A DNA stretch of 31,445 nt from IMG/VR virus record IMGVR_UViG_3300023115_000069, positions 1 to 31,445 of that record. One strand, written 5' to 3'. Shown here one piece after another: positions 4,701-31,445 of the stretch. The DNA comes from a virus. The number at the start of each line of letters is the position of its first letter. Position 1 is the stretch's first letter. The notes beneath the pieces are model-generated. The model saw only the letters and a program-made list of their open reading frames with translations, did no database searches and had not been told where the DNA came from. The position numbers and the translations under genes were made by a program.

Positions 4701-7700
4701 AGTAAGAAATGACAACGAAATCGTTCTCAAAAATGTTATTGGAACTTTTGATAATACTGGAACATTCTCCGCTGATATCAAGACATTCTTTATTCTTCTA
4801 GATCAAGATAGTTCCTACACTAAAGGTGCTATTCTAAGTTTGACAGATGGAATCAATCCAGCAATTGCTACAGCAGAAGTTCTGAATGGAACTAGTCAGC
4901 AAAACGTTGTTGAGATCAAGGTTCTCAGTGGAGATTGGTTACAGTTCAATCAAGGAGAATACTTCCTCCAATCAAACGACTTTTTCAATACTTCTGGAAC
5001 AAGACCAGTAGTTCTAACTTCTCTCAGTGACAATCTAGAACCATTTGAGGTAAATCAGAGTGTTGCTCTTGTAGAAACAGCGGATAATCATGGTCTTGGT
5101 ATTGATGATAAGGTCAACATCAGTATTTTCCCTGATGATTCTATCAAGACTAAAACATATTATCTAAGAAAGAGACTCTATCAGAAAGTAGTTTTCAAAG
5201 CGCCATCATATTCTTCAGAGATTGATGATACTGGTATTGGCAGATTCCAGATCTTGAATGGTGGAGCAGACTATGCTCCTGGAACTTATAATAACGTTCC
5301 TCTTACTGGTGGAACGGGAACTGGTGCTACTGCTAGCATCACCGTCTCCAGTGTTGGTGTTGTTTCAAGTGTTGTAATTCAGAACCAGGGTACAGGATAC
5401 AGAAAGGCAGATTATCTATCTGTTGATGATGAATCACTGGAGAGATCTGTTGCTTCACAAAGTACATCCAGATTTACTGTTTATGTTGACCATGTTGGAT
5501 TTGCTTCTGGATCAACCAAACTAAATGTAAAAACTTCCAACAAACTTGCTGAAGGTGATTTGGTATTGATTGGTGATGAAGTTATTGAAGTATCTTCTAT
5601 CAATGGTAATGAGTTGACTGTATTAAGAGGAAGAGAAGGATCTGTAGATAAAGATCACTATAATGGTCAACCAGTAACTTTATACAAACCAAAATACAAT
5701 TTTGCCGATGGATTCCAGATTGGATCCAATAATACCTCTGGATTTATTTTATCATATGATTCTGCCACTCAGGAAGCGATTATAGTTTACAATTATGAAG
5801 TTCAACTGACCAACGCAGAAGACATTAAGATAAGCACCACTTTCTTTGATTCAAGTGTGCCATCCAGATCTGTTTCCGTAAAGACAGCAGATTCTATTGG
5901 ATATAAATTTGAATTCTCTGAAGATAACGTAACATTTGTTCCAAATCCAACAATTGATATTCAAGAATTCTATCGTTATAAGTTTGACACCTCGCACTCA
6001 TCACTAACTGGAACTTACTTTGATCTAAGTCCAAGTAAGAACTATAATCTTATTACTCAAGAAAAACTAGCAACAACTGTTCTTCCTGGAAATTCGGGAG
6101 CATTTACAGAAGTCAAGTTTGGTTTTGGGTCAAGAATTGCTTCAAATAACTACACTTCTAAAGTTGGAACTGATTTTACTAATTTCTACTATTTTGATAA
6201 AAATCAAATTGTAGATTCTGAAGGAAGTTACTTAAAGATTGTTACCGATCCACTTCAAGGGGAAAAGACAGTAATTTATGTAACACCAAATAGATTTGTA
6301 TATAATGTTCCATCAGAACCTCTTTGGGATGGATCTGGAACTATCAATTACACAACTACAGGTCAATTCGCAGTTGGTGAAATCAATGATGTAAAAATTA
6401 CTAATCTTGGATTGAACTATAAAAAAGTTCCAATTATTATTGGTGTAGATCCAAATCAGAATTTCAAAGCATCGGCAACTGTTTTGTTTGACGAAGCGAC
6501 ACAAACTATCACTGGTATTAGAACCGACAATAAAGGATCAAACTACGTAAATCCTAAAGTTGTTATTGTCGATGGAGATGGCGTTGACGCCGAATTCAAT
6601 ATTGTGGTTAGAAACGGAGAGATTTTTTCAATCACGGTAAAGAGTCCTGGTGTTGGGTATACCTATGCTCCAGTTGTGGAAATTATCGAATCTGATATTG
6701 AAGCATATGTTGATAGTGATACAATTGGTCTTCCACAAAGTATCAGTATTGTTAGAAATGGTGGATCTTTCCATCTAGACAAAACTGTATCATCCAAGTT
6801 TACTTCGAAATACACAGTATCACTAACTTCTCTAAATGGAACTTTCAACAAAGGAGAAACAGTAGTTCAGAAAATTGGTTCTACCGAAGTTTCTAGATCT
6901 GTTGTATCTGAGTGGAGAATTGGAACTAATTTACTCAAACTAGAAAATGTAAGGGGTATTCTCAGAGAAGATGTAGAAATTGTTGGATTATCCTCAAGAT
7001 CCACAGGAACTGTAAAAACTATTTTTGTAAGTTCGTTTGGCGAAAATATTACAGCATTCTTTGATAATGTTGGATACTATACTTCAGATAGAGGAAGACT
7101 TGGCGTATCAAATCAAAAGATAACAGACAGTTTCTTCTATCAAGATTATTCATATGTTGTAAAATCTAAAACTCCTATTGATCAGTGGCGTGAACTGATC
7201 AAGTCAACTACTCACCCAGCTGGATTCAAATTATTTGGTCAAGTTGACATCGAAACCAATGCTGGTATTGAGATGCCAGCAGAAACACCAAAGGCATCTC
7301 ACTTCAGTGTTATTCAACTCTGGGATCCAGAAAAGAACAAAATTACTATTGAAAATACTAGAAGGACAATCACACAAACTGTCCAAAAGGTAGAAAATCA
7401 AAGAATTAGAAAAGGATCTGGATCTGCTTCAACATCAGAATTCAACTTCAACGAATCTCGCGCATTTACAGTTACGCTAGCAGCACCATTTGATGGTTAT
7501 TATGATAACCAAGGAAGATTACAGGGAACAACCAGTTTCCAAATTTTGAATAATGGATTACCATTTACCCCAGCAAGTGCTAAGAATCTTATTATCACAT
7601 TAGACGGAGTTTTACAGGAAGCAGAAGTTTCATATACTATTTCTGGTGACACAATAACTTTTGCTAAACCACCTTTAGGACCATACCAAAAACTAACTGG

Positions 7701-16900: not shown

Positions 16901-19900
16901 ACTTTAGAAGAGATTTTGTTACATCTGGTTCTACTGGTGGAGGACTGATTACATTTGCTGCTCAACTTCCATTTGGAACTCAAAGATTTACGGCATTCAA
17001 TGAGAAAAATTACATTATTACTGTTCTAAACAAGAATAGTGCCGATAAGGTAGAGACTGGAGATATCATTTATATTGATTCAGATAATGTAGAGATCACC
17101 TCCGCAACTGATACTGCTAGTGGTCTCACATCTGGAAGCATCAAGTTTAATCTTCCAACATCATATTTCAATACAAACTATGCTGGTGTGGCAAACTATG
17201 TTGCTCCAGAACTAAAACTAACAGCAACACTTGAAGTACAAAATGCCAAACCAAGGTTGAAGACTGTTGTTAGAAATAAGAGAATCGTTGTTGATTCTGC
17301 TGGCGACAGAACAATCCCATTCAGAGGTACTGATTATGACAGTGACGTTGTAGAAACTCTGTCATATTCTGACGCATTCAAACTGAGATATGTTTATGAA
17401 GGAACAAGCACACAACCACCAGAGATTGATAGTGCTGGTAATCTAGTTTCTGGTTCTGATGTAACCAACAGATTTACATTTGACAACGGTCAGAGAGATA
17501 CAATTTATGATGTATCCCGTATCGTTATCAAACCAGGATTTGAAGTTCCCACTGGTCAGTTAGTAATTGCTTTTGATTACTTTGAGCAATCTCAAGGAGA
17601 TTTCTGTACTATCGACAGTTACTTACATGATGCTGGTGTTCCAGAAGATGAAATTCCATCTTTCAACTCATCTGTTCTAGGAAACGTTGAACTTAAGAAC
17701 GTAATTGATTTTAGACCAAAAGTAAACACTGCTACGATTGTTCCAGGATATCAAGATACTTCATCTCTAGAAGTAATTACAAGTAACTTCACTGGAGGCG
17801 GTTCTGTATATGCTGCTACCCCAGCTCCAGATACAAACTTAGAGTATACATTCAAATTTAGTCAAGTTCAATATCTTGATCGTATTGATGGTATTTTCCT
17901 CAATAAGAAAGGAGAATTTATCGTCAAAGAAGGCAACTCTTCTCTCAACCCATCCAAACCAGATCCAGTAAAGGATGCTATTCCTTTATTCTATGCTTAC
18001 ATCCCAGCATTCACCAATACTAGCAAGGATGTAAGAATTACCCCAGTAGAGCATCGTAGATATACGATGAAAGATATTGGTAAGTTAGAGAAGCGCATTG
18101 AGCGTCTTGAGTATTACACGACCCTTAGTATCCTTGAGCAGCAAGCATTGAATATGCAGGTCAAGGATGAAATTGGTTTAGACAGATTCAAGTCTGGATT
18201 CTTTGTAGACAATTTTGAATCACATAGTATCGGCAATCTTGTTTCTCCTGATTACAAGTGCTCTATTGATAGCAGACAATCTGTTCTAAGACCACAATCC
18301 AAAGAAGATTCATTGACTTTGAAAGAGGTATATACCAGACAAGATCAAAGATCTGTTGCTGGATATCAAAAGTCTGGTGATATCGTTACACTTCCATACT
18401 CAAAGATTAAACTTCTAGGAAACGAGTTTGCTTCTAAGACCATCAATCCAAACCCATTTGTTGTTGTTCAATATGTCGGTGATGGAATGGTATCTCCATC
18501 AATTGATCAATGGTATGATCAAAGTGTAGAACCACTTGTTGTTGATACAAATACAAGTATCTTTAATATCTTCTTAGCGAAAGATAATGTAAAAGAAAGT
18601 TTCTCCAGTCTACACAATTCATTCATTGTAAACTGGGTAGGATCTGCTCCCGCTTTCACTTCAATCAATTCACTTGGAGAACTAAACACCACTCAAGCAA
18701 ACTCTGGTGTCAAAGCAGCATCTGTTGGTAGTTCCTCAAACATCAGTCCTCAGAATAATGAGGTTGGTAAAGGAGTTCAGACAAAGACTGTTGGCGATAA
18801 CATCGTATCTACATCTCTACAATTCTTTGCTAGAAGCAAACCAATCAAATTTGTTATCAGCAGACTAAAACCAAATACCAAAGTTTCTGTTTTCTTAGAG
18901 GGTAGAAACATCAATCGTTGGGTAAACCCAGATCTAAGATTTACTGGAACTGCTGGAAACTCACTGTCTGCTTTCAATGGTGAAGTTGTTACCGATGAAA
19001 ATGGAAACGCTAGTGGATTGATTCTTCTACCTGCTGGCAAACCACCAAGAGAGAACGCAACTTGGGGTGGAGACATTGATAGTCTAGAGTATGATGATTC
19101 TGCCGAAGAGCTACGTTTTACAACTGGCATCTTGACACTGAGATTTACTTCCAGTTCCACAAATGAAGATAAAGCAACTGTTGATACTTACGCAGAAGTC
19201 AAATACTATGCCACTGGCGTTCTTCCAGAGAATCCAGCAAGTATTGTTTCCACAAGACCTTCATACTTCAAGTCCAATGAGGGTGTTCAGTTTGTAGATA
19301 GCAATACCGACAACCCAATCAGACCAAACCCATTGGCACAAACATTCAAGATCGAAAACTATGACGGTGGTTTGTTTGTAACTGGTCTAGATCTCTTCTT
19401 TAGCAAGAAGAGCACTAATATTCCAGTCAAGGCATACATTACCAATGTTGACTACGATAAACCAAGCAAGAACATCGTACCTGGAACAGAGAAAACTCTT
19501 TCCCCAGAAACATATCTCAAGTGTTTTGCTAACGGAAACCTATCAGTAACTCAAGGAGAATATGTCGTAGGAAGAAGTTCTGCTTCTTCTGGTCCTATCT
19601 CCAGAATTATTGATAAGAATGGTGTAGAACTAACACCATCATCCACTGGTGTATATGATCTGACAAATGAGCAGGTTTATACTCTTGTTCTTGCCAACCA
19701 CAATGGTCGTTCCTTTATTCAGAATGAAGAACTAGATATTCCTTCTGTTGAATTAGCAAACGATAAAAATGGAACAAATCTTGTTCTGACAATTGCTAAA
19801 GACAGTGGAAAACTATCAGACATTAGGATTACCAATCCTGGTGCTAATTATGATAGTGCTGTTCTAACCATTGAAAGTCCACAACTTCCTGGTGGTTCGG

Positions 19901-22116
19901 TTGCTACCGCTAAGATCAATGTGTCTGATGGTAAGATTTACAACGCTGATGTATCAATTGCTGGATTTGGATATACCGAAGCTCCATCAGTTGTCGTCAA
20001 AGGCGTCGGCAATGGCGCTGGAGGATGCGAAGTTGAGACCTTTATAGAGATTGACACTCCAGCAGTTAGAATGGGCGTAGCGACCGATTTCGAAGGTCTC
20101 ACGGAGTCTACAACACCAACTAGATTTGATTTTGAATACCCAGTATATCTTCAGAATGATACTGAGTATGCTCTAGTTGTTGAGACAGACTCAAGTGATT
20201 ATGAAATGTGGGCATCACGTCTTGGTGAAACAGATCTTGCTACCAGTACAGTTATTACAACTCAACCATCTCTCGGTTCTGTTTATAAGTCACAAAACAC
20301 AGAGAGTTGGACAGAGGATAACTTTGAAGATCTCAAATTTACTCTATACAGAGCAGAGTTTGATATTACAAGGCAAGCAGAACTCCTAGTTAAGAATGAA
20401 AATCTTGGATATGAATTGTTGGATGCTGAACCAGTTGAAACAAATGCTACTTCTGAATCTATCGCAACTTCTAAGTTGTTCAAGAATAACAACAGTGTTA
20501 TCAAGATCAACCATAGAGACAATGGATTTGAAGATAATGGAAAGTCTTATGTATTCTTCAAAGGTGTCTCCGATGTTGGCGGTGTGAATTCCGAGGTATT
20601 TAATACAAATCTATATCAAGTAACAAACTCTGGTGTTGATTCATATAATATCAAAACTATCACTAGTGCTTCTAAGAGTTCTTTTGGTGGTGGTAGTTCT
20701 GTATACGCTACGTACAATAGAAAATTCGAAGTTCTATATCCACAAGTCCATTACCTAACAGTAACTGGAACTAAGATTGATACTTCAGTAAAAACAACTA
20801 ATATCATTCCTGTTGATTCATCAACTACAAATTACACTTCATATTCACAGACTGGATTCGAGAAGACATTCTTGAACGAAGCACATTACTTTGATAACCA
20901 AAAGGTAGTTGCTTCCGAGATCAATGAGACTCTAAATGGTATTGATAGATCACTTACCTACAAGATGACTCTATCTTCAACTGTTTCATACCTATCACCA
21001 GTTGTTGATTTGTCCAGTGCTTCTGTCAAGACTGTATCGAACAGAATTGAGAACGCAAATGGTCAAGAAAACAGATATGGAAGAAGAGATCAGATTCTTG
21101 AGTTCTATCCTGTCTATAACTTCGCACTATCAACTGTGACACCAGGAGTATCTTATCAGACTAACCAGAGCATCAAGGGATCTACATCTCAAGCATCTGG
21201 AACGATCTCTAAGGTAGATGGAAATAATATCTGGGTTAGAGTTAGAACTAAGCAAGGATTTACTCTAAATGAGACAGTCGAACTAACTCAATTTGCCAAC
21301 ACTCAAGGTGCTCCAGTTGTTACTGTCGGATCCAATCCATCCCTAGTAACGCCTATTATCAACAGCTCAACTCAGTCTGCTGCTGGTGAGTCAATTACAA
21401 TCGTTGCTAGAAATCCAGTTGAGTCTAAGATTCTAGAGACATATGATAACCGCATTACTGGTAAGTCTGTCATCTGGAATAGAACCACGAGACAACTAAC
21501 TCTCAGAACTGATCTACAACCAATCAATGATGATTACACTTCGAGAATTATTGATAGCAACTTGTTTGCTAGAGCGAATGAAGTGGTAGATCAACTTCCA
21601 GATATCTTTAGAGTTGGTGATATTATCTCATATCCAAACCAACCAGATGACGAGGCATTCTTTCTAGAAGTTCAAAGAGTTTCTTATTCTAATGGTGTTG
21701 ACTTTGTTGCTGAAGATACTTCCAAGAATAGTTCTTCTGCTGCTAAGTATGTAACTAAGGAAATCTATATTACTAATCCTGCTACTGCTATTGATGTTCA
21801 TCTCCTAGCAAACGTAAAAGATATTTCAAATATTGAAGTTCTTTACAAGTACAAGAGAGCATCAAGTCAAGAAAACTTTGAAGATGCTGAGTGGTTCTAC
21901 TTCAATGAGTCTGGAAAACCAGATTCATTGGAAATAGCTACTGCTGACAACAGCATCTCAAGCGTTGTTGAAAAGCAATCATCATATCAAGATCTCAAGT
22001 ATAGCGTAGCAAGTCTACCTGAGTTCTCTTCATTCGCAATCAAGATTGTAATGAAGGGAGTAGATCCAGCATACGTTCCTAAGATTCAAGATATTAGAGC
22101 TGTCGCAGCATTCTAA
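13966..22116 (+). CDS. DUF4815-type virion structural protein (2,716 aa)
   Basis: The N terminus (NPYYEDFDANKNFYKILFRP, then GRELTQVQSILQNQIE) has the hallmark of the DUF4815 family, found in large structural proteins of T4-like marine phages. A short coiled coil at residues about 1369-1400 (GKLEKRIERLEYYTTLSILE) and the block RPNPLAQTFKIENYDGG near 1786 are also typical. Residues about 2023-2130 form a block with VYLQNDTEYALVV, EMWASRLGE and LKFTLYRAEFD, probably a beta sandwich. A G-x-x-Y beta module (about 1945-2022) seems spliced in just before it. The ATG at 13966 is supported by GGCGGAG 4 nt upstream. The position after gp8 corresponds to T4 genes 9 and 10, so a role at the baseplate edge is likely, but I cannot show homology to those proteins. 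The exact function is unknown. Confidence 0.88.
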   Translation: MPQKTNLNVNPYYEDFDANKNFYKILFRPGYSIQGRELTQVQSILQNQIESFGRYAFKQGELVIPGEVGLNTKLDYVKLSSVSEVAVNVGNDIVYKKYDITQLVGQQLRGLTSGVIASVLSANLATEASADTLYVSYQNSGNSNTETTFRQGETLEVIDGVNTPLMVVGTDGSVLPTSISVTDPDSGITSSLESPAMGYASAVKVEEGIYFVNGYFVRNDAQLLVIDEYYNKPSAKVGFTIKEEIVTPEEDPSLYDNAIGSSNYTAPGGHRLRIRLELKEFALDAITDKNFIQLLTVSRGLVQRKVSVADYNIIEQTLARRTYDESGDYVVDNFSIDIREYAQKDSNRGIYAVDEFGLYNGYSASEAARKMIASVSPGKAYIKGYEIVNKETKYLEINKARESLTTDNATIKTKGLPTYSITNVYGSVPLNKEGSQLTAYPTVYLSTLFNDGYVGLSNRESDSNYRQTVDKRGTFFDSNVGVKTVTLEIVDVNIPISSIISSDLDNTFSKLWYVKTRAGTNIVSSVDVLSYTKVFKPARNPGTTEESRFLEVTVSGLKSDLENVFIEYDESSQDKTRKVFLTQNDALGDEKEDLASTTFAIIVDYSDTLTPVIGTAKPSNFFLQERGNGFNSDSDIVLSKGIEAEGTESYNATFGMSYFDPQFFTKIKLETIPAANSYGIGTYVYGLTSGAYGVVEGGPSGVYSTGRLLYVKTLSGKFLPGETIRDEGGNLVKIATENTISHFVVLERGLGYPQTSTLKVDGVSYDQSKIELGFNGQGVYRVDIVDRTSVSNEYARPPVVSVDSGETTPTTPAVIIPVLNRNTVTTYTPQNVKSLGCSYGSGNANTFTADVLVDDREYAELYDVTDFTFFGAKGTKYLESTSFSADASSIVQQGDLIQFSDNSNNVIRAIVQYSTIQKGSSKSRIYIDETLYDDVSGTSVVRLRPRVQNPNAGTLLFPTGSKSVQSISAGPDDSKITYYFRRDFVTSGSTGGGLITFAAQLPFGTQRFTAFNEKNYIITVLNKNSADKVETGDIIYIDSDNVEITSATDTASGLTSGSIKFNLPTSYFNTNYAGVANYVAPELKLTATLEVQNAKPRLKTVVRNKRIVVDSAGDRTIPFRGTDYDSDVVETLSYSDAFKLRYVYEGTSTQPPEIDSAGNLVSGSDVTNRFTFDNGQRDTIYDVSRIVIKPGFEVPTGQLVIAFDYFEQSQGDFCTIDSYLHDAGVPEDEIPSFNSSVLGNVELKNVIDFRPKVNTATIVPGYQDTSSLEVITSNFTGGGSVYAATPAPDTNLEYTFKFSQVQYLDRIDGIFLNKKGEFIVKEGNSSLNPSKPDPVKDAIPLFYAYIPAFTNTSKDVRITPVEHRRYTMKDIGKLEKRIERLEYYTTLSILEQQALNMQVKDEIGLDRFKSGFFVDNFESHSIGNLVSPDYKCSIDSRQSVLRPQSKEDSLTLKEVYTRQDQRSVAGYQKSGDIVTLPYSKIKLLGNEFASKTINPNPFVVVQYVGDGMVSPSIDQWYDQSVEPLVVDTNTSIFNIFLAKDNVKESFSSLHNSFIVNWVGSAPAFTSINSLGELNTTQANSGVKAASVGSSSNISPQNNEVGKGVQTKTVGDNIVSTSLQFFARSKPIKFVISRLKPNTKVSVFLEGRNINRWVNPDLRFTGTAGNSLSAFNGEVVTDENGNASGLILLPAGKPPRENATWGGDIDSLEYDDSAEELRFTTGILTLRFTSSSTNEDKATVDTYAEVKYYATGVLPENPASIVSTRPSYFKSNEGVQFVDSNTDNPIRPNPLAQTFKIENYDGGLFVTGLDLFFSKKSTNIPVKAYITNVDYDKPSKNIVPGTEKTLSPETYLKCFANGNLSVTQGEYVVGRSSASSGPISRIIDKNGVELTPSSTGVYDLTNEQVYTLVLANHNGRSFIQNEELDIPSVELANDKNGTNLVLTIAKDSGKLSDIRITNPGANYDSAVLTIESPQLPGGSVATAKINVSDGKIYNADVSIAGFGYTEAPSVVVKGVGNGAGGCEVETFIEIDTPAVRMGVATDFEGLTESTTPTRFDFEYPVYLQNDTEYALVVETDSSDYEMWASRLGETDLATSTVITTQPSLGSVYKSQNTESWTEDNFEDLKFTLYRAEFDITRQAELLVKNENLGYELLDAEPVETNATSESIATSKLFKNNNSVIKINHRDNGFEDNGKSYVFFKGVSDVGGVNSEVFNTNLYQVTNSGVDSYNIKTITSASKSSFGGGSSVYATYNRKFEVLYPQVHYLTVTGTKIDTSVKTTNIIPVDSSTTNYTSYSQTGFEKTFLNEAHYFDNQKVVASEINETLNGIDRSLTYKMTLSSTVSYLSPVVDLSSASVKTVSNRIENANGQENRYGRRDQILEFYPVYNFALSTVTPGVSYQTNQSIKGSTSQASGTISKVDGNNIWVRVRTKQGFTLNETVELTQFANTQGAPVVTVGSNPSLVTPIINSSTQSAAGESITIVARNPVESKILETYDNRITGKSVIWNRTTRQLTLRTDLQPINDDYTSRIIDSNLFARANEVVDQLPDIFRVGDIISYPNQPDDEAFFLEVQRVSYSNGVDFVAEDTSKNSSSAAKYVTKEIYITNPATAIDVHLLANVKDISNIEVLYKYKRASSQENFEDAEWFYFNESGKPDSLEIATADNSISSVVEKQSSYQDLKYSVASLPEFSSFAIKIVMKGVDPAYVPKIQDIRAVAAF

Positions 22117-22125
22117 TTTCCGCGT

Positions 22126-22332
22126 ATGGGTTACATCAAAGTAAAAGGGCACGATGGTCTTGTAAGAGACGAAAACACAGGTGCCATCATCAATCAGAAC
22201 GCCTCTGCTATTGAAGCGAGGCGTAAAACAAAACACTTGAATTCCGCGTTGGAAGACATAAATATGTTGAAGGATGAAATCTCTGAAATCAAATCCCTAC
22301 TTAGAGAGTTAGTAAAAAATGCCAGCAATTAA
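22126..22332 (+). CDS. Small coiled-coil protein (68 aa), unknown function
   Basis: It begins 9 nt after the preceding stop and its last 14 nt overlap the start of the next gene, which argues for translation as part of the same transcript. The first half (MGYIKVKGHDGLVRDENTGA) is polar and glycine-rich. The second half (LNSALEDINMLKDEISEIKS) has leucine/isoleucine spacing suited to a short coiled coil, ending in LLRELVKN. No membrane segment or signal peptide is visible. Small proteins of this kind occur between structural genes of marine T4-like phages. A role as a virion component or assembly factor is a guess. Confidence 0.78.
   Translation: MGYIKVKGHDGLVRDENTGAIINQNASAIEARRKTKHLNSALEDINMLKDEISEIKSLLRELVKNASN
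22257..22264 (+). promoter_or_regulatory. Possible internal late promoter CATAAATA
   Basis: CATAAATA lies inside the 68-aa gene, 54 nt before the start of the 1,621-aa gene. It differs from TATAAATA only in the first base. It could give extra transcription of the fibre-like gene, but such AT-rich octamers may also arise by chance here. Confidence 0.3.
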
Positions 22333-25300
22333 TGTCGCTAGAACTGATACCTTTGAGATTCAAAGGCAGAAGATCAACCAGATCGGTGATCAAATTTTCA
22401 ATATCTCTCAGGGCGGTAGCGATCTTGCTACTGGTAATTTGAAGTTGGGAGATGGTACAATTTCAGCACCATCTCTTGGATTTACCACCAAATCTAATTT
22501 GGGTCTTTATAAGGCTACAGAATCTTCAATTGGTTTTGTTTCTTCTGATAAGAGACTTTTTAATATAGGATTAGAAAACCTAAAATCTTTTAGAGATTTT
22601 GTCTTTCAAAAAAATGTTTTATATGATGCTGGACTAGAAATATTAAATTCTGGTAGTAATTATGATCCTGGGTCATATACAGCAATTACTGTATCTGGAG
22701 GAACTGGTGTAGAGGCAACCGCAGATATTTTAGTTTCTGAATATGTTGGAGAAATAACAAATCAAGGATCAAATTATAATCCTGGAAATTATACTAATAT
22801 TGAATTATCTGGAGGATCTGGAACTGGATCTACAGTTAATTTTATTGTAGATCCAATAAACGGAAATATTATTGATAGTGGTAATGGATATCAAGCAGGA
22901 AATTATACTAATGTTCCACTAACAAATGGATCTGGTAGCGGAGCATTAGCAAATATTTCTATTATTGGTAGTGCTGTTTTATCTGGATCTATCGCAAACC
23001 CTGGATCTTCATATACACAAAATACTTATCAAAATGTTCCACTAACAAACGTTCCAATACAAACGTTTGTGGTTACTGCTGTTTCAAATCCAGGAACTCC
23101 TCCGCCAGATAATGTATATCAAATTGATGGGGTAACTCAAGCAACCTTATCTTTTGTTGTTGGTAATACTTACAATTTTGATGTTTCTGATGCGTCTGTA
23201 TCAACTCATCCACTAGCTTTTTCACAGCAAGATAATAATTTTCTTCCTCTTGAGGACTTCATTATTACTTCTTACGGAACAGCAGGAACTCCTGGTGCTT
23301 TTATTCAAGTCATCGTAAAACCATCCGCTTCTTTAGGAACAATCAAATATTATTGTACCGCTCATGCTGGAATGGGATCTACCATTTCGGTTATTTCTGG
23401 ATCTGAAGGAAATTATGGTTCTGGATCTAGTGCCAATATAACAGTCGATGCTTCTGGAAATGTAACCGATCTAGAATTTGTTTCTTACGGATCTGGATAT
23501 AAAATTGGCAATTCCGTAACTGTTTTTTCTGGAAATATTGGAGGAACTGGTTCTGGATTTATTTACACATTGTCATCAATTGTTTACAATGGAGAAGTTT
23601 CTTCAGTATCTATTGTAGATAGTGGATTAGATTATCAGAACGGTGATATATTATCAGCAAATGATTCTGATCTAGGAAATGTTGGTGGTTCTGGATTTGA
23701 GTTTTTTGTAAATACCGATCCTGGAATTGTAAAAAACTTAAGTTTTGTAGATAAAGGATCTGGTTATAGTGCTAATGATGTTTTGTCATTACCTGGAGCA
23801 TCAACAAATATATCTGGTTCCCTAAAGGGAATTGTGACTGGATTGACAACTACTTTAACTTCAGGATCATCTATTGTTACTCTTTCATCGACTTCTGGTA
23901 TTGTTGAAGGAATGGGAGTTTCTACAAGTATTGAATCTGTAGGAACTCTGGATTCTAATACAACAGTATTGTCTATCGATAGTTCAACCCAAATAACTTT
24001 ATCAACTCCAGCAACTGGCAGCGGATCAGCAGATTTAAGTTTTGTTTCTCCTGGTGATTTTACAGAAATTTTAGTAAATGATGCTTCTCAAATATATTCA
24101 GGATATAGCGTTACTGTGGTGAGCGGAGATGGATCTTTAGATCCAGCAGCTTCCGTATTGAGTGTTGATTATCAAACTAATATTGTTACTATAAACTCTG
24201 CCCCAATTTCTTCTGGATATGTTGTTTTAGATTTTAGTCCATCTTATGGAATTCCAACTACAAATTTTGAATACACTATTGGCAATATCGGAGCGATAGA
24301 AACTGTTACTGTCAATAATCCTGGTAATGGTTATAGTGTTGATGATATTTTATCTGTCTTATCATCAGACTTGATTCAACCAATAACATATAATGTATCA
24401 AATAAAACCGTTCAATTAGTTACACTAGATCAAACTGTTTCATCTTCAACATTTTCAGTAGGAGATTTTATTGAGTATAATTCTGGAACAGAAACAGCAA
24501 CATCCGAAATTTATAAAGTTAATTCTTCTGGTGGAAATATTGTTTCTCTTCTTGTTGATGGCGGATCTTTATCAGAAGAATCTTCTTTCAATAAAGTTGG
24601 AAGTGCTACTGTATATGATGTCAATACTGTAGAAAATCAATACAGATATTTTATTGATATTGGAAATGGTTCGGAAATAACACCAAACATTACGTTATAT
24701 TCTGGCAACATTTATACATTTGATTTTTCTGATAGTTCTAATTCTGGTCATATATTCAATCTTAGTACATTTAGGGATGGTCAATATTCTCCAAGTTTAG
24801 TAGACAACGTAAATGCTACTATAGTATCTGGATCTAGGCAAATTACAGTTACAGACACTTCCAACATTTCTGTGGGAATGGAAGTAACTGTTATTAGTGG
24901 TCAAGCTATCTTACAACCAGGAACAGTCGTAGAAAGTGTTGACGATGCCACAACATTGACACTTTCTTTAGTTCCAGTATCTGGTGGTCAGTCTGTTGTT
25001 TCATTTTCTGGAACTGCTTATTCTGATAATGTCACTAGAACTGGAAGCTCTTTGACCATAAAGATTACAGACGATACTCCAAATCTATACTACTATTGTT
25101 CTTCTGGTATAGGTCATGAAAATGAAGGTGGTGATGATAACGAAGAAGCTCTATTAACTATTGATCTAAACAATCCAAAAGTATTTGGATCTGGGTTTCA
25201 GTTGAGAGTTAATGAAATTTTAGAATCACAATCAATTTTCTTTGATATTATTTCTGGAAAATTATCATTGAGTGATATTGAATCTACAGATATTCAAACA

Positions 25301-27184
25301 AATACATTTACTGCCAGCACTTCAATTTCTACAAATAATGCTACTGTAAATACCCTCAATGTGACTTCTATATCTAGAAGTGGTAATATTGGCATTTCGG
25401 CAACCAATACTAATATATCATCTGGAAATTTCAATATTGGTTCTTCTATTAGCATGAATTCTAATGGTAATATTACCACATCAGGAATTCTAAAAACTAC
25501 AAATCTTTTGAATGTCAATGATAAGATTAGAATTACTGACAACAATATTTCTACAACAACTGGAAATGACCTAAATCTTTTACCATCTCCAGGAAGTTTA
25601 ACAAAAGTAATTTCCACAAAAGCATTTGTAATTCCAGTCGGTACAAGTTTAGAAAGACCAGATCAACTAACTGCTACCAGTGGAGCTATAAGATTTAATA
25701 CTACTACAGGACAATACGAGGGATACAATTCTTCCACTACCACTTGGTCTTCTCTTGGTGGTGTTAGAGATATTGACGGAAACACATATATTTTAGCAGA
25801 GTTAAATCCTGGCAGCAATGATAATACTTTATGGTTTTATAACGATAGTGTCAATACTCTAAAATTGACACCACAATTTTTAGATTTTAGAAGTGTAAAA
25901 ACAATTTCATCGGGAAGATTAGGTCTCCCATCTTTTACAGTATGGACAGCAAATACTCCAGTATCAATTGGTCAGTTTGTCAAATATAGAAATAATCTTT
26001 ATGAAGTAACTGGATCTGGAACAACAGCAACAGTTGGAAACGAACCAGTTCATGTTTCTGGAGCTCTTAATAATGGAACTGCTCAGTTAACTTGGTATTC
26101 TTCTGCCGTATCTCCACTTACATTTACAGAAATTGAAGAACTAAGAGTTGCTCCGAATAAAGATGCTGCTCTTGTCGTCAATGGTGGACTAAAATTAGGC
26201 GGAACTACATCCGAAGATTGGAATACTATTTCAACCCTGGTAGAAGATCTAACTATTGCTCCAAACCCTGGTAAAAGAGTAATAATCAAATCATATACTC
26301 ACCTTGCTATTCCTGCTGGTAATAATAATCAAAAAAATATTGCCACCGCTATCCCTGGATCGATTAGATTCAATACAGAAATTCAGCAATATGAAGGTTA
26401 TAGCGGAACTAACTGGTCCTCCCTTGGGGGAGTAAGGGACGTTGATGGAAACACTTACATTATTCCAGAAAGTGCTCCCGCAGCAAACGAGAATATTTTG
26501 TATTTCTACAATGATAATCTCAACACAATGCAGTTGACGAAGACTTCGTTGGACTTTACAAATATTGATACGATTACTACATCTGGTCTCAATAATCTCT
26601 CTATCGACACTCCTCTGGTAACTCTAAATTCAAATGATACAACAATTGATAACAGAGATGTAGACAGAACCTTTATTAGTACAAGTAAGCAGTTCTTGGA
26701 TCTAGGTCTTTCTTCTGGTCTAGTTGTTGATCCTGTATTGAGACTAGATGACCAAGGTGATGTTTATTTGAACACTACTTTTGGATCTGGAACTTTCAAT
26801 GGGGTCAAAGTTCTTGACGGTCAATTGAAAGAATTTGAATTGGCAGATTATGCTATAAAAACAACAACATTCCAGTTAGCAAAAGGTGGTGCTGAAACTG
26901 GATCGTTTGTTCTATATGATTCTGGATCTAGAAAAGGATGTAAAGTAACAGTGGTTTCTAGGTCTTCTTCTGGAAAAAGATCAATGACAGAGTATTCTGT
27001 TATAGATAATGGAACTGATATTTTCCACAATGAGTTTGGATCGTTGAATACATCTCTTGATCAATATACAGCATTGTTTGATTTCAACGCTAGCAATGAG
27101 ACTAGAATTTCTCTAACTCTTTCAAATGATCATGCCAATGGTGACATTATTACGTTCACAGTTCTCGTACAGGTAATTAAGTAA
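22319..27184 (+). CDS. Fibre-like virion structural protein with cupredoxin-like domains (1,621 aa)
   Basis: The N terminus (NVARTDTFEIQRQKINQIGD, then TGNLKLGDG) is of a type I associate with marine T4-like tail fibre or baseplate proteins; the KIN...GDG spacing loosely recalls the start of T4 gp10. Then follow, by residue: four G-S-x-Y beta repeats (about 104-247), a cupredoxin-like domain (263-362), three more G-x-x-Y repeats (about 365-500), two G-S-S-x-V-T-L modules (about 510-640) and a second cupredoxin-like domain (771-950) with a third such module inside. The C-terminal part has a duplicated IRFNT...YEGY...SSLGGVRD block (1084-1204, 1310-1425) flanking a carbohydrate-binding-like segment (about 1209-1262), and ends in a probable beta-rich tip (about 1510-1621). 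AGAGAG at 22303-22308 may serve as ribosome binding site. Host contact is likely from architecture and position, but unproven. Confidence 0.85.
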   Translation: MPAINVARTDTFEIQRQKINQIGDQIFNISQGGSDLATGNLKLGDGTISAPSLGFTTKSNLGLYKATESSIGFVSSDKRLFNIGLENLKSFRDFVFQKNVLYDAGLEILNSGSNYDPGSYTAITVSGGTGVEATADILVSEYVGEITNQGSNYNPGNYTNIELSGGSGTGSTVNFIVDPINGNIIDSGNGYQAGNYTNVPLTNGSGSGALANISIIGSAVLSGSIANPGSSYTQNTYQNVPLTNVPIQTFVVTAVSNPGTPPPDNVYQIDGVTQATLSFVVGNTYNFDVSDASVSTHPLAFSQQDNNFLPLEDFIITSYGTAGTPGAFIQVIVKPSASLGTIKYYCTAHAGMGSTISVISGSEGNYGSGSSANITVDASGNVTDLEFVSYGSGYKIGNSVTVFSGNIGGTGSGFIYTLSSIVYNGEVSSVSIVDSGLDYQNGDILSANDSDLGNVGGSGFEFFVNTDPGIVKNLSFVDKGSGYSANDVLSLPGASTNISGSLKGIVTGLTTTLTSGSSIVTLSSTSGIVEGMGVSTSIESVGTLDSNTTVLSIDSSTQITLSTPATGSGSADLSFVSPGDFTEILVNDASQIYSGYSVTVVSGDGSLDPAASVLSVDYQTNIVTINSAPISSGYVVLDFSPSYGIPTTNFEYTIGNIGAIETVTVNNPGNGYSVDDILSVLSSDLIQPITYNVSNKTVQLVTLDQTVSSSTFSVGDFIEYNSGTETATSEIYKVNSSGGNIVSLLVDGGSLSEESSFNKVGSATVYDVNTVENQYRYFIDIGNGSEITPNITLYSGNIYTFDFSDSSNSGHIFNLSTFRDGQYSPSLVDNVNATIVSGSRQITVTDTSNISVGMEVTVISGQAILQPGTVVESVDDATTLTLSLVPVSGGQSVVSFSGTAYSDNVTRTGSSLTIKITDDTPNLYYYCSSGIGHENEGGDDNEEALLTIDLNNPKVFGSGFQLRVNEILESQSIFFDIISGKLSLSDIESTDIQTNTFTASTSISTNNATVNTLNVTSISRSGNIGISATNTNISSGNFNIGSSISMNSNGNITTSGILKTTNLLNVNDKIRITDNNISTTTGNDLNLLPSPGSLTKVISTKAFVIPVGTSLERPDQLTATSGAIRFNTTTGQYEGYNSSTTTWSSLGGVRDIDGNTYILAELNPGSNDNTLWFYNDSVNTLKLTPQFLDFRSVKTISSGRLGLPSFTVWTANTPVSIGQFVKYRNNLYEVTGSGTTATVGNEPVHVSGALNNGTAQLTWYSSAVSPLTFTEIEELRVAPNKDAALVVNGGLKLGGTTSEDWNTISTLVEDLTIAPNPGKRVIIKSYTHLAIPAGNNNQKNIATAIPGSIRFNTEIQQYEGYSGTNWSSLGGVRDVDGNTYIIPESAPAANENILYFYNDNLNTMQLTKTSLDFTNIDTITTSGLNNLSIDTPLVTLNSNDTTIDNRDVDRTFISTSKQFLDLGLSSGLVVDPVLRLDDQGDVYLNTTFGSGTFNGVKVLDGQLKEFELADYAIKTTTFQLAKGGAETGSFVLYDSGSRKGCKVTVVSRSSSGKRSMTEYSVIDNGTDIFHNEFGSLNTSLDQYTALFDFNASNETRISLTLSNDHANGDIITFTVLVQVIK
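22628..23060 (+). repeat. Tandem G-S-x-Y beta repeats in the fibre-like protein
   Basis: Four diverged units of about 35 residues each, with cores NSGSNYDPGSYTAI, NQGSNYNPGNYTNI, DSGNGYQAGNYTNV and NPGSSYTQNTYQNV, each followed by a G/S-rich turn. The last unit is cut after NVPLTN, where the cupredoxin-like region begins. A closely related unit occurs in the giant protein at nt about 5250-5400 (NGGADYAPGTYNNVPLTGG). Confidence 0.78.
23105..23404 (+). other. Cupredoxin-like domain with full candidate copper ligand set
   Basis: Residues about 263-362 of the fibre-like protein. The segment NTYNFDVSDASVSTHPLAF supplies His297, and YYCTAHAGMGSTISVI supplies Cys346, His349 and Met352. This is the His ... 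Cys-x2-His-x2-Met order of type-1 copper sites, with the Cys-His-Met loop at the C-terminal end as in plastocyanins, though its loop is shorter than in plastocyanin. The fold call rests on these spacings and on the beta-rich pattern; copper binding is not shown. Confidence 0.6.
24629..25165 (+). other. Second cupredoxin-like domain, diverged and interrupted
   Basis: Residues about 771-950 of the fibre-like protein. NIYTFDFSDSSNSGHIFNLS parallels the His297 region of the first domain (His811), and LYYYCSSGIGHENEGG parallels its Cys-His loop (Cys927, His933), but no Met follows: Glu934/Glu936 occupy that place. The stretch between (about 833-900) contains SGSRQITVTDTSNISVGMEV, a beta module also found elsewhere in this protein and in the giant protein. 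Confidence 0.5.
25568..25930 (+). repeat. IRFNT/GGVRD block, copy 1
   Basis: Residues about 1084-1204 of the fibre-like protein: LLPSPGSLTKVISTKAF, then SGAIRFNTTTGQYEGY, SSLGGVRDIDGNTYI and TLWFYNDSVNTLKLT. The same order of segments recurs at 26246. IRFNT...YEGY...W is a pattern common in phage tail fibres. Confidence 0.8.
25943..26104 (+). other. Carbohydrate-binding-module-like segment
   Basis: Residues about 1209-1262: WTANTPVSIGQFVKYRNNLY, followed later by LTWYS. The spacing W...G..V.Y....Y resembles the CBM5/12 type of carbohydrate-binding module and similar modules of phage fibres. It sits between the two copies of the IRFNT/GGVRD block. Sugar binding is a suggestion only. Confidence 0.4.
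26246..26595 (+). repeat. IRFNT/GGVRD block, copy 2
   Basis: Residues about 1310-1425: TIAPNPGKRVIIKSYTHL, then PGSIRFNTEIQQYEGY, SSLGGVRDVDGNTYI and ILYFYNDNLNTMQLT. The most conserved part, SSLGGVRD.DGNTYI, differs from copy 1 at one residue. Confidence 0.8.
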
Positions 27185-27705: not shown

Positions 27706-27733
27706 ATAATAACGGCGGGAGCTAGAAGGCACC

Positions 27734-30700
27734 ATGAGTTTTCATATTAATTCCGATAAAGAAAAGATTAGAGGCGTAAACCCTAAACTCATCGGTGATA
27801 ATGAAGCTACTATTAGAGTTGGTACTGGAACTGACGAGCGAGAAGTATTTCGTGCTCAGTTAGATCCAAATACCAATTTGCCCAGAATTGGTATTAACAG
27901 AACTGGTCAAAGAGTAAATAACATTGAGATTACTGAAGCTGGTTCTGGATATACTCAAGTTCCTCTTGTAGAACTTTCCGCTCCACCTGTTGGTGGAACT
28001 CAAGCACTCGCTTCTGCGTTTATTTTCAATGGAAGAATTTCTTCTATTGCTGTAAATGATCCTGGCAGTGGATATACTTCACCTCCAACTGTAACTATTA
28101 CTGGCGGTAATGGTGCTGGTGCTGCTGCTGAAGCGTTTCTCGATACAGTTGACTTTGAACTTGATATCAATGGTGCTATTAGAACTTCTACATCTATCAT
28201 TTCTGATACTGCTAGAGTTCTAAACCTCGATATTGAAAATTTTGTTACTCCAGACTTAGCACTTAGAGCTCCAAGTCTAAAAACATATATGAATGGAACT
28301 GGCACTATTTGGAGTGCCAATGTAATTCTTCAAAAAGGAGATTATAGGTATTTTGGTCAAAACGTATATGAAGCACTGAATTCTGGACAAACTGGAAGTC
28401 TTGGACCAGAACACAGTGATGGTATTGAACTAAACGGAGAAGTAAGGTTCAAGCATATTGGTTTTAGAGTTGTAGATCCAAATAATGATCTATATCTACA
28501 AACTGGACAAGCTGGATTATTCCCACGTTCGATTACACCACAACTTGGTGATAGATCAGATAGAATTGCTACAACAGAATACGTCCTCAACCTAGCAACG
28601 AATGACGTTGGTGGTCGTATCTATGTTTCCGAGCAGATTGGTTCTGACTTGAATGATGGTCGTTCCGCTGTAAACCCAGTTAGAACCATCAAGAAGGCAG
28701 CACAACTTGCTTGGGCGACTCCTGGTGTCAAGGAAACCATCATCGTTTCTGGTGGTGACTATGTAGAAGATAACCCAATTTCACTTCCACCAGATGCTTC
28801 GGTTGTCGGTGATAACTTGCGTCTTGTTATTATTAGACCAGGAAATCCAAACAAGCACATCTTTAAGTTTGGTGATAAAAACTATGTAACTGGCGTTACA
28901 TACAGAGACCAAGTTGATTCAAACGGAGATCCAGTAGCAACTTGGGACTACGCAATGGTCTTTGACGACAAGCAAAGAATTTCCATTGACTACGATGCTA
29001 ATGGTGATTTTGGAACATCATTCCCAATCGGTCACCAAATCTTCGGTCCAAATCAATTTAGAGTTACTTTCCAGAATAACACAGGTCTTTCTGATCTACA
29101 GACTGGCGTTGAAGTTATTGGTGTCAACACTGGTGCTAGAGCAAATATTCTAGATGTTGTATTCAACTCAACAACTGGAGCAAATGCTTATGTTTCTGGA
29201 ACAATTGATGTTGAACTATCATCTGGTTCTTTCGTTGAGGGTGAGCAATACAACTACATTACATCATCAGTAACTGGAGCAGCAATTGCTCTAACTATTT
29301 CTCAGACTGCTGGAAATAACACTCTTAGATTTACCGATGATCCAACATCAACTATTCCCGTTGGAACATATGTTTTCCTAGATGATACAACTGATGCTAA
29401 TTTTACTCAAGGTTATTATCAGGTAGGATCTATTGATGACGCCAATGCTCCAACATACTGGGATGTAAACTTTGTTCCTGTTTTAGGATCTCCTGGATGG
29501 GATAGTTCTGTCTCGGCATCAATTGCTATCAATGAAGCAACTCCAGATATTGAAACATTTGATACTACCAGACTAAGATCAATTAGAGCTGAGGGTGAAG
29601 TTGTTTCTGTTGATGAAGATATTACAACAACTTTACCTATTGTAAGACTTGACTTCTCCCTACAAGGAGATCCTAGCATTGCTACTGGTGGTTTCCAAGA
29701 AGCACAGTTTGGTAGTGCTGAAGATCTTGGCGGTGTTGTTTTCTATACCAGTGATCTTGTGGGAAGAACCAATACCCACGAGTTCAAAGAGGGTCAGGAA
29801 ATTATCATCACTGGAATGCCAGTGGCAAACCCAGACCTTTCTGCGTTGAATGGTAAGCAAAGAATTTATAAAGTTATTGAGGATGCTGACGGTAGAGCAA
29901 GAAGATTTGTTATTCCTAAGAAGTTTCCAACACTTGCTACTCCAGATTTAGATCCTGGTGAATTTGCCACGGTTCAGTCTTATTCGAAGGTAGTTACACT
30001 TTCACTACTAAACTCACCAAACAAGTTCCAACTTACAACTCCAACTGATAGAAGATATCAGGATGCTTGTCAACTCATCAGAAACAACAGAGATTTTATT
30101 GCTGATGAAGTTGTAGGACGTATCAATGATGAGTTCAAGAAAGAATATTACTCAGCATATAACATTGATACAGTAAACAACACTTTTGATATTTTCCTAG
30201 GAACAAGCAACTTTACTCATACTTATGTAAGTGGTGGAACTGTATACTTTGGAGCAACTCCATACACGATCACAGATTTTGTTTGGGATAATATCAGCAC
30301 AGGTGTTGCTACCATTACTCTAAGCACTGCTCCTGGTTTTGTTGAAGATGATATTATTAGACTAGAAAATATTCTGGTATCCTGCGCGAATGGTCAAAAG
30401 TTATATCCAAGTTTCAGCATCCCCGTAGATGATGATCAGTGCCGTCAAGACATTGTTCACTTCCTGAATGCTCTAGTAAGAGACCTTGAGTTTGGAAGCA
30501 ACCACAACGTCCTAGAAGCGGGTTCTAAGTATATCACTGGAGCTAAGATTGGATATGTAGAGAACGAGATTGTTCAGACCGTCCGTGCTATTGAGTATGC
30601 CAGAGAGTTGGCAATCTACGCGATGTGTAATTGGAGGACTGGAAATAGAACGCAAGGTGATCCTCTGTATGCTCCACAGTATTCTACACTTGACAGATAT

Positions 30701-31445
30701 TTTGATGATACTGTTATTACAGCAACTGCTGGAACACCAGCTTGTTCCAACGTAGCATCTGCTATCACAACATTATCATACTTGTTCATTGATGTTGTTG
30801 CTAATAACACCAGTGGAACTTATCTAGACGCAGCATACTTGATCGCAAGAAACAAAGATCTCATTGCTCATCAAGCACTCCTAGATACTCAAGCACAATA
30901 TCCAACACTAGGTCTTTCAAATACACACGAAAGAAAGTGCCTCAGAGACATTGGATATGTTCTAAGAGGTCTTATCAGGGATCTGTGCCTTGGTGGAAAC
31001 GCTGGAACAGTTACAGCAGCAAAAGCATACTTCACTGCTAATGTTCTCTCTGGTGTTGATGTAGACCAGATCGCAGAAACAAGATATGCTTATACTAAGG
31101 TAAAAGATTACGCTATTGCTGCGATGCGTAATTGGACTGATGGCGCAGGAACAGCAGTAACAGTATCATCAGATATTCCACAATTTACAGATGGAACTAT
31201 CTTAGCAGATCCTGGAAGTCCCGATTGTGCTAATGTAGCAACATCTATCGATAGTCTGATGGGAATTCTTGATGGAATTCTTGAGTATGGTGAAGATGAT
31301 ACAAGTCCAACTGCTACTTCTCCATCATCTGTAATTGAGAATTATGGAAGTCTTTATGATATTTCTCAGGTTATCACCTATCCAGACAGTTACATATACG
31401 ATGCCAACAATCAAAGAGTAGCAATTCGTGGTGACTATGATGATT
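27734..31445 (+). CDS. Large fibre-like structural protein with beta-helix segment (3' end outside window)
   Basis: The frame is open from ATG 27734 to the window end (1,237 complete codons, no stop). GAAGG at 27725-27729 is a plausible ribosome binding site. The N terminus reads MSFHINSDKEKIRGVNPKL. Two G-S-G-Y modules follow (residues about 60-125: EAGSGYTQVPLVEL, DPGSGYTSPPTVTI). Residues about 293-420 look like the start of a pectate-lyase-type parallel beta helix (RIYVSEQIGSDLNDGRSAVN, then TIKKAAQLAW, IIVSGGDYVEDNPISLPPDA and VVGDNLRLVIIRPG), a layout frequent in phage fibres. Residues 775-1190 hold two copies of the helical RD-GY-GGN-RNW unit also found in the giant gp7-slot protein. 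A fibre or baseplate-peripheral role is likely; enzymatic activity is not indicated by any catalytic residue I could identify. Confidence 0.88.
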   Translation, partial: MSFHINSDKEKIRGVNPKLIGDNEATIRVGTGTDEREVFRAQLDPNTNLPRIGINRTGQRVNNIEITEAGSGYTQVPLVELSAPPVGGTQALASAFIFNGRISSIAVNDPGSGYTSPPTVTITGGNGAGAAAEAFLDTVDFELDINGAIRTSTSIISDTARVLNLDIENFVTPDLALRAPSLKTYMNGTGTIWSANVILQKGDYRYFGQNVYEALNSGQTGSLGPEHSDGIELNGEVRFKHIGFRVVDPNNDLYLQTGQAGLFPRSITPQLGDRSDRIATTEYVLNLATNDVGGRIYVSEQIGSDLNDGRSAVNPVRTIKKAAQLAWATPGVKETIIVSGGDYVEDNPISLPPDASVVGDNLRLVIIRPGNPNKHIFKFGDKNYVTGVTYRDQVDSNGDPVATWDYAMVFDDKQRISIDYDANGDFGTSFPIGHQIFGPNQFRVTFQNNTGLSDLQTGVEVIGVNTGARANILDVVFNSTTGANAYVSGTIDVELSSGSFVEGEQYNYITSSVTGAAIALTISQTAGNNTLRFTDDPTSTIPVGTYVFLDDTTDANFTQGYYQVGSIDDANAPTYWDVNFVPVLGSPGWDSSVSASIAINEATPDIETFDTTRLRSIRAEGEVVSVDEDITTTLPIVRLDFSLQGDPSIATGGFQEAQFGSAEDLGGVVFYTSDLVGRTNTHEFKEGQEIIITGMPVANPDLSALNGKQRIYKVIEDADGRARRFVIPKKFPTLATPDLDPGEFATVQSYSKVVTLSLLNSPNKFQLTTPTDRRYQDACQLIRNNRDFIADEVVGRINDEFKKEYYSAYNIDTVNNTFDIFLGTSNFTHTYVSGGTVYFGATPYTITDFVWDNISTGVATITLSTAPGFVEDDIIRLENILVSCANGQKLYPSFSIPVDDDQCRQDIVHFLNALVRDLEFGSNHNVLEAGSKYITGAKIGYVENEIVQTVRAIEYARELAIYAMCNWRTGNRTQGDPLYAPQYSTLDRYFDDTVITATAGTPACSNVASAITTLSYLFIDVVANNTSGTYLDAAYLIARNKDLIAHQALLDTQAQYPTLGLSNTHERKCLRDIGYVLRGLIRDLCLGGNAGTVTAAKAYFTANVLSGVDVDQIAETRYAYTKVKDYAIAAMRNWTDGAGTAVTVSSDIPQFTDGTILADPGSPDCANVATSIDSLMGILDGILEYGEDDTSPTATSPSSVIENYGSLYDISQVITYPDSYIYDANNQRVAIRGDYDD
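28610..28990 (+). other. Pectate-lyase-like beta-helix entry segment
   Basis: Residues about 293-419 of the last gene: IYVSEQIGSDLNDGRSAVNP, TIKKAAQ, then IIVSGGDYVEDNPI, followed by PPDASVVGDNLRLVIIRPG and YVTGVTYRDQ. The order 'IYVs...GsD.ndG...P..TI..A' followed by 'I.V..G.Y.E' is the usual start of parallel beta-helix domains in fibres. Confidence 0.6.
30056..30817 (+). repeat. Helical RD-GY-GGN-RNW unit, last gene copy A
   Basis: Residues 775-1028: YQDACQLIRNNRDFIADEVV, then CRQDIVHFLNALVRDLEFGS, ELAIYAMCNW and ACSNVASAITTLSYLFIDVV. An extra beta stretch (about 805-890) separates the first two blocks. Confidence 0.7.
30821..31303 (+). repeat. Helical RD-GY-GGN-RNW unit, last gene copy B
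   Basis: Residues about 1030-1190: YLDAAYLIARNKDLIAHQAL, then CLRDIGYVLRGLIRDLCLGG, DYAIAAMRNW and DCANVATSIDSLMGILDGIL. It follows copy A almost directly and matches copy 2 of the giant protein block by block. Confidence 0.75.

Follow-up and report, generated by a model that had tools for sequence, protein, structure and literature searches.

A large virion protein encoded in a 31,445-base IMG/VR virus record (hereafter the window, analysed over its whole length) contains a domain that is predicted to have the cupredoxin fold and that carries an intact His-Cys-His-Met set, the putative ligands of a metal site. Our preferred explanation, to which we give a probability of about 0.6, is that this domain is an adhesion or stability module of cupredoxin fold with a selected mononuclear site, probably for copper, in a tail- or baseplate-associated virion protein.

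The open reading frames of the window make up a cyanomyovirus tail/baseplate cluster. They encode baseplate wedge subunits (81-1706 and 12059-13870), a 3429-aa virion protein (1711-12000), a DUF4815 protein (13966-22116) and the carrier of the domain, a 1621-aa virion structural protein (22319..27184, + strand) that is a fibre-like mosaic. This protein matches the phrog_6005 virion structural protein over its whole length (E = 0, 1739.6 bits) and its orthologues in Kyanoviridae are annotated as structural or virion structural proteins. The same large gene lies upstream of the orthologues in Synechococcus phages S-RIM44, ACG-2014h, S-H9-1, S-RIM32, S-H9-2 and S-CAM4. Farther along the window, next to a phrog_5449 gene, a frame that stays open for at least 1244 codons (27713-31445) runs off the window end.

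The initial annotation had proposed a cupredoxin-like domain in this fibre-like protein, in a beta-rich segment of about 100 residues (23105-23404), with four residues in the order of type-1 copper ligands. All four are indeed present (codons starting at 23207, 23354, 23363 and 23372), and the segment is indeed a predicted beta sandwich; the domain itself is slightly longer, at 114 residues (domain 1, residues 249-362, 23063..23404, + strand). The putative ligands, all encoded on the + strand, are His297 (23207..23209), the first of the set; Cys346 (23354..23356), the thiolate, at the end of the penultimate strand; His349 (23363..23365), in a C-x2-H motif; and Met352 (23372..23374), the axial ligand. 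The 1621-aa protein has 3 Cys, 8 His and 7 Met in total; the C..H..M arrangement occurs once in it, and was not found in the other five long open reading frames of the window.

Structure prediction, which the initial annotation had suggested as a check, gave a confident beta sandwich whose best solved matches are cupredoxins and in which the four residues occupy cupredoxin places. The AlphaFold2 model, built from an alignment of 24 rows (window plus IMG/VR sequences), has nine strands, a pLDDT of 92.9 and a pTM of 0.85. In domain numbering, His49 stands before strand 51-55, Cys98 closes strand 92-98, and the loop that leads into strand 106-111 contains His101 and Met104. In a Foldseek search of the PDB, all 8 matches below 1e-3 were rusticyanin (E 7e-5 to 4e-4, TM about 0.5), with multicopper oxidases, plastocyanins and then Ig domains (E 1e-2) ranking after them; fold matches in a viral library were mostly marine phage structural proteins. 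The model thus points to a Greek-key sandwich of cupredoxin type in domain 1, with ligand order and strand and loop places laid out as predicted for a type-1 site.

In sequence the resemblance to cupredoxins is more tenuous. A profile-profile match to PF00127 proteins of the azurin and halocyanin types from marine genomes puts His, Cys and His in register and scores 29.95, where none of 200 column shuffles exceeded 23.3; hhalign gives domain 1 a probability of 59% (P 9e-5) against known cupredoxins. The window domain has no match to PF00127 (Copper-bind) itself, and 3 of 38 family members reach E 0.013, below the gathering cut-off. The plastocyanin model TIGR02656 gives the window domain 12.5 bits, below its equivalog cut-off of 87.85, and phage plastocyanin (PetE) was rejected as an explanation of domain 1 on these scores. 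PDB sequence searches, both single-sequence and profile, returned sub-threshold matches only, plastocyanin among them, together with noise from Ig chains and SUMO fusions. Pfam, NCBIfam and PHROGs assign no function to the domain.

How well is the putative site conserved? An alignment of 38 diverse homologues, 30-59% identical to the window domain and with a mean column identity of 41%, has just 8 invariant columns: G23, F39, H49, G75, C98, H101, M104 and G105 in domain numbering. Four of these (H49, C98, H101 and M104) are the putative ligands and the others are three Gly and one Phe; the chance that four residues chosen beforehand all fall among the eight is about 1e-5. The Met is always present even where the spacing between His and Met, usually 2 residues, is 3 (L095) or 4 (L087). 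The spacings of 2 to 4 span the lengths that this loop has in amicyanin and plastocyanin. An HMM that ends before the CxxHxxM motif gave 134 distinct hits, of which 120 still have CxxH(2-4)M downstream; every one of the other 14 is a second-domain paralogue. As to the conservation check that had been proposed together with the structural one, all 72 distinct first-domain homologues retain the four residues, and loss of Cys and Met was not found among them. Counting every locus, the set is intact in 199 of the 201 distinct full-length modules. These surveys differ in scope. A tblastn search of annotated phages yielded 37 records, none above 60% identity, and an IMG/VR homologue search yielded 80 loci. 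The scans of IMG/VR and of genomes used six patterns, one of which contains the motif, so the unbiased evidence is that of the tblastn set and the orthologue survey. The conservation of His, Cys, His and Met in domain 1 is well above chance. Membership in the Ig-like domains was rejected on the fold ranking and on ligand conservation.

The 1621-aa protein has a second cupredoxin-like domain (domain 2, residues 766-973, 24614..25237, + strand), which serves as an internal control. It matches the domain-1 HMM at E 4e-10, is interrupted by a module of about 65 residues and carries the variant set H811, C927-x5-H933-x2-E936. AlphaFold2 models it with a pLDDT of 90; its best Foldseek match is the cupredoxin AcoP at E 0.05, a comparison made uninformative by the inserted module. 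When ligands were surveyed in 46 orthologue representatives (90% clustering), C-x2-H-x2-M with the upstream His was found in 16, C-x5/6-H-x2-E in 10 and C-x6-H-x2-M in 3. Loop length covaries with the axial residue: short loops always have Met and long ones mostly Glu, the window domain being of the Glu kind. The upstream His and the Cys lie about 115 residues apart in sequence. Both are present in 29 of the representatives and neither in 14, with His alone in 3 and Cys alone in 0 (Fisher 3e-9); that they are kept or lost jointly over such a distance fits the prediction of a shared site. In a tree-based test the informative independent pairs all point in one direction and are too few for significance.

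Sites in the two domains also tend to complement one another. At least one complete H-C-H-M site is found in 73 of 80 orthologues, the remaining 7 having none. At 90% clustering, where the domain-1 site is intact both sites are so in 6 of 28 representatives, and where it is not the domain-2 site is intact in 13 of 18 (6 with both, 22 with domain 1 only, 13 with domain 2 only and 5 with neither; p 9e-4). The association is weaker at 80% clustering (p 0.13), and independent pairs taken with the tree give about 4 changes in opposite directions versus 0.2 in the same direction (p 0.06-0.13). ACG-2014i and ACG-2014e are missing domain 1 and have an intact domain-2 site. We treat this reciprocity as a trend and a lead. 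A protein chain would seem to need no more than one occupied site.

The initial annotation regarded copper-site-like domains in virion proteins as unusual, a view that the distribution of the module corrects for marine phages, since it is carried by 70 annotated phage records (found with a divergent query) and at least 600 IMG/VR stretches (found by pattern scan). The named records are all marine, comprising phages of Synechococcus, Prochlorococcus, Pelagibacter and Methylophilales as well as marine single-cell and fosmid records; the plasmid records searched contained no relatives of the domain. Fourteen phage records have from one to five module matches apiece, in fibre, 'virion structural' and neck-neighbouring genes. 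Among cyanophages, pelagiphages and methylophages the module has been shuffled between fibre and baseplate proteins. Other large cyanophage reading frames (L315, L316, L318, L319 and L322) contain a divergent group with His, Cys, His and Met, of the form GHPFY...YYYICQxHxxM.

Cells have the domain too. It lies at the C-terminal end of proteins that resemble lipoproteins, from SAR86, SAR92, OM182 and Marine Group II archaea, on contigs of up to 619 kb; of 41 genomes that are relatives of one SAR86 genome, 25 gave matches. These homologues all have the site and look exported, with an N-terminal leader and a lipobox-like Cys, as read by eye. Lipoproteins of the SAR86/OM182 type with the terminal domain include L186, L188, L195, L199, L203 and L205, and those of Marine Group II (L183, L187 and L189) combine it with collagen-like repeats. 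True PF00127 cupredoxins are encoded by separate genes in 6 of 8 of the domain-bearing cellular genomes. Some of the other cellular loci may belong to phage contigs within draft genome assemblies. A 431-aa reading frame on a contig of a Flavobacteriaceae draft genome (L197), which has tandem domains with C-x2-H-x3-M loops, may likewise be phage-derived.

Not every copy of the fold has the site. A third copy in the window, at about residues 1412-1490 of the 3429-aa protein (5944..6180, + strand; phrog_4406), matches the domain HMM with an iE of 1e-6 and has no C..H..M, and ligandless equivalents are found in 3,300-3,600-residue proteins of related cyanophages. ORF080 of the siphovirus P-SS2 (L314:2980-3318) is a free-standing, 112-residue copy of the domain that has lost His, Cys and His. 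Mass spectrometry of purified P-SS2 particles detected an average of 9 peptides of ORF080 (PMC2784084). We rejected this protein as virion proof of the metal site, given the loss of the three residues; its presence in particles without them indicates that the fold is a virion part and that the metal site is not required for this. Since ligandless copies exist, fold and site are separable, and the site, where retained, is selected for a reason beyond the fold.

Those copies, namely P-SS2 ORF080, the 3429-aa protein and its relatives, are also an argument for a rival explanation, in which a beta-sandwich spacer or adhesion fold akin to the phage Ig-like domains has been reused and the His, Cys, His and Met are a relic or have a non-metal role such as packing or a reactive Cys. 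Ig domains are, besides, the next fold matches. Relic residues, however, would not be expected to stay invariant while domain identity falls to 30-59%. The paralogous site in domain 2 vanishes as a unit, which is how an unselected site behaves; domain 1 behaves otherwise. We consider this explanation unlikely.

If the site does hold a metal, must it be copper? Another metal, most likely zinc or iron, could act as a structural clamp in the manner of the HxH iron sites of T4 gp37 or the zinc sites of PAAR proteins. The domain-2 variant with C-x5/6-H-x2-E, found in 10 of 46 representatives, replaces soft Met with Glu and so would suit harder metals, and iron is known in phage tail proteins (the gp37 HxH sites, reviewed in PMC11705849). 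A Cys, a Met and two His in a cupredoxin frame nevertheless make up the arrangement for copper, the Met of domain 1 is invariant, and the cellular relatives look exported; we therefore hold a non-copper clamp to be somewhat less probable again than the reused fold. Lowest of all we rank a copper 'Ferrojan horse', in which virion-bound copper would lure outer-membrane metal receptors of the host. The iron version of this idea has been published (PMC11705849), the hosts of the carrier phages (Synechococcus, Prochlorococcus, Pelagibacter and Methylophilales) all live in metal-poor seawater, and many genomes have several modules; but in known cupredoxins the site is largely buried, and we hold such a lure to be improbable.

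In the preferred explanation, that of a cupredoxin-fold module with a selected and probably copper-binding site, residues 249-362 would form a beta-sandwich module inserted in a large, fibre-like virion protein associated with the tail or baseplate. The H-C-H-M site, complete and of type-1 design, probably binds a metal; copper, as Cu(I)/Cu(II), is with somewhat less confidence the probable occupant. Free copper is kept scarce in the bacterial cytoplasm, so that loading after lysis is the likelier order: copper would be acquired as lysis frees the protein from the cytoplasm, or else in seawater. The bound metal may then pin the C-terminal loop onto the sandwich, and the pinned loop may stabilise or switch the exposed module, which would take part in attachment to the cell surface. 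Because ligandless copies occur in virion proteins, the fold does not itself depend on metal. That the site serves stability or attachment is a tentative suggestion that we would put a little under even odds. A more ambitious version strikes us as doubtful: fibres of abundant ocean phages would have working type-1 copper centres that load with copper outside the cell and switch attachment in response to redox state or metal, and surface lipoproteins of SAR86 and Marine Group II would be the cellular counterpart.

Occupied sites would make metalloprotein assemblies of a large share of all marine phage particles. Copper would then join iron, which has already been considered for phage tails, and infection in the surface ocean would be tied to trace-metal chemistry in a way that can be tested. 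The module is also a recognisable one for annotators: Pfam now misses it in many proteins labelled 'virion structural' or 'tail fiber', and likewise where it terminates widespread lipoproteins of SAR86 and Marine Group II. Domain 2, in which the site comes and goes, provides natural variants for comparison.

Cupredoxins, phage plastocyanin and tail-fibre iron sites are all on record. A search of open-access papers on cupredoxins or plastocyanin and phage tails turned up no description of a conserved site of cupredoxin type that is shuffled among virion proteins as a module. With the type-1 copper cupredoxins (plastocyanin and azurin of PF00127, rusticyanin, amicyanin) domain 1 has in common the predicted fold, the kinds, order and topology of the ligands and the C-x2-H-x2..4-M loop. 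Unlike them it falls below the Pfam and NCBIfam cut-offs, its copper site is putative, and it is part of a 1621-aa virion protein without a signal peptide. Cyanophage PetE, an auxiliary metabolic gene product (PMC3037559), has broadly the same fold and ligand set and occurs in the same virus group, but is a separate soluble electron carrier, whereas domain 1 belongs to a structural protein. The HxH iron sites of T4 gp37 and marine phages (PMC11705849) are likewise metal sites in a phage fibre, as is putatively that of domain 1; they are trimeric and octahedral, whereas the site in domain 1 would be intradomain and of cupredoxin type. Phage Ig-like domains resemble domain 1 in being beta-sandwich modules, optional accessories that are shuffled among fibre proteins, but they have no conserved set of metal ligands and are a weaker fold match. 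Relatives in cells are the lipoproteins of SAR86, SAR92, OM182 and Marine Group II (L183, L186-L188, L195, L201 and L203), which belong to the domain-1 sequence family and keep His, Cys, His and Met intact; they differ in being cellular and apparently exported, and in having the domain fused to cadherin-like, PEBP or collagen-like sequences.
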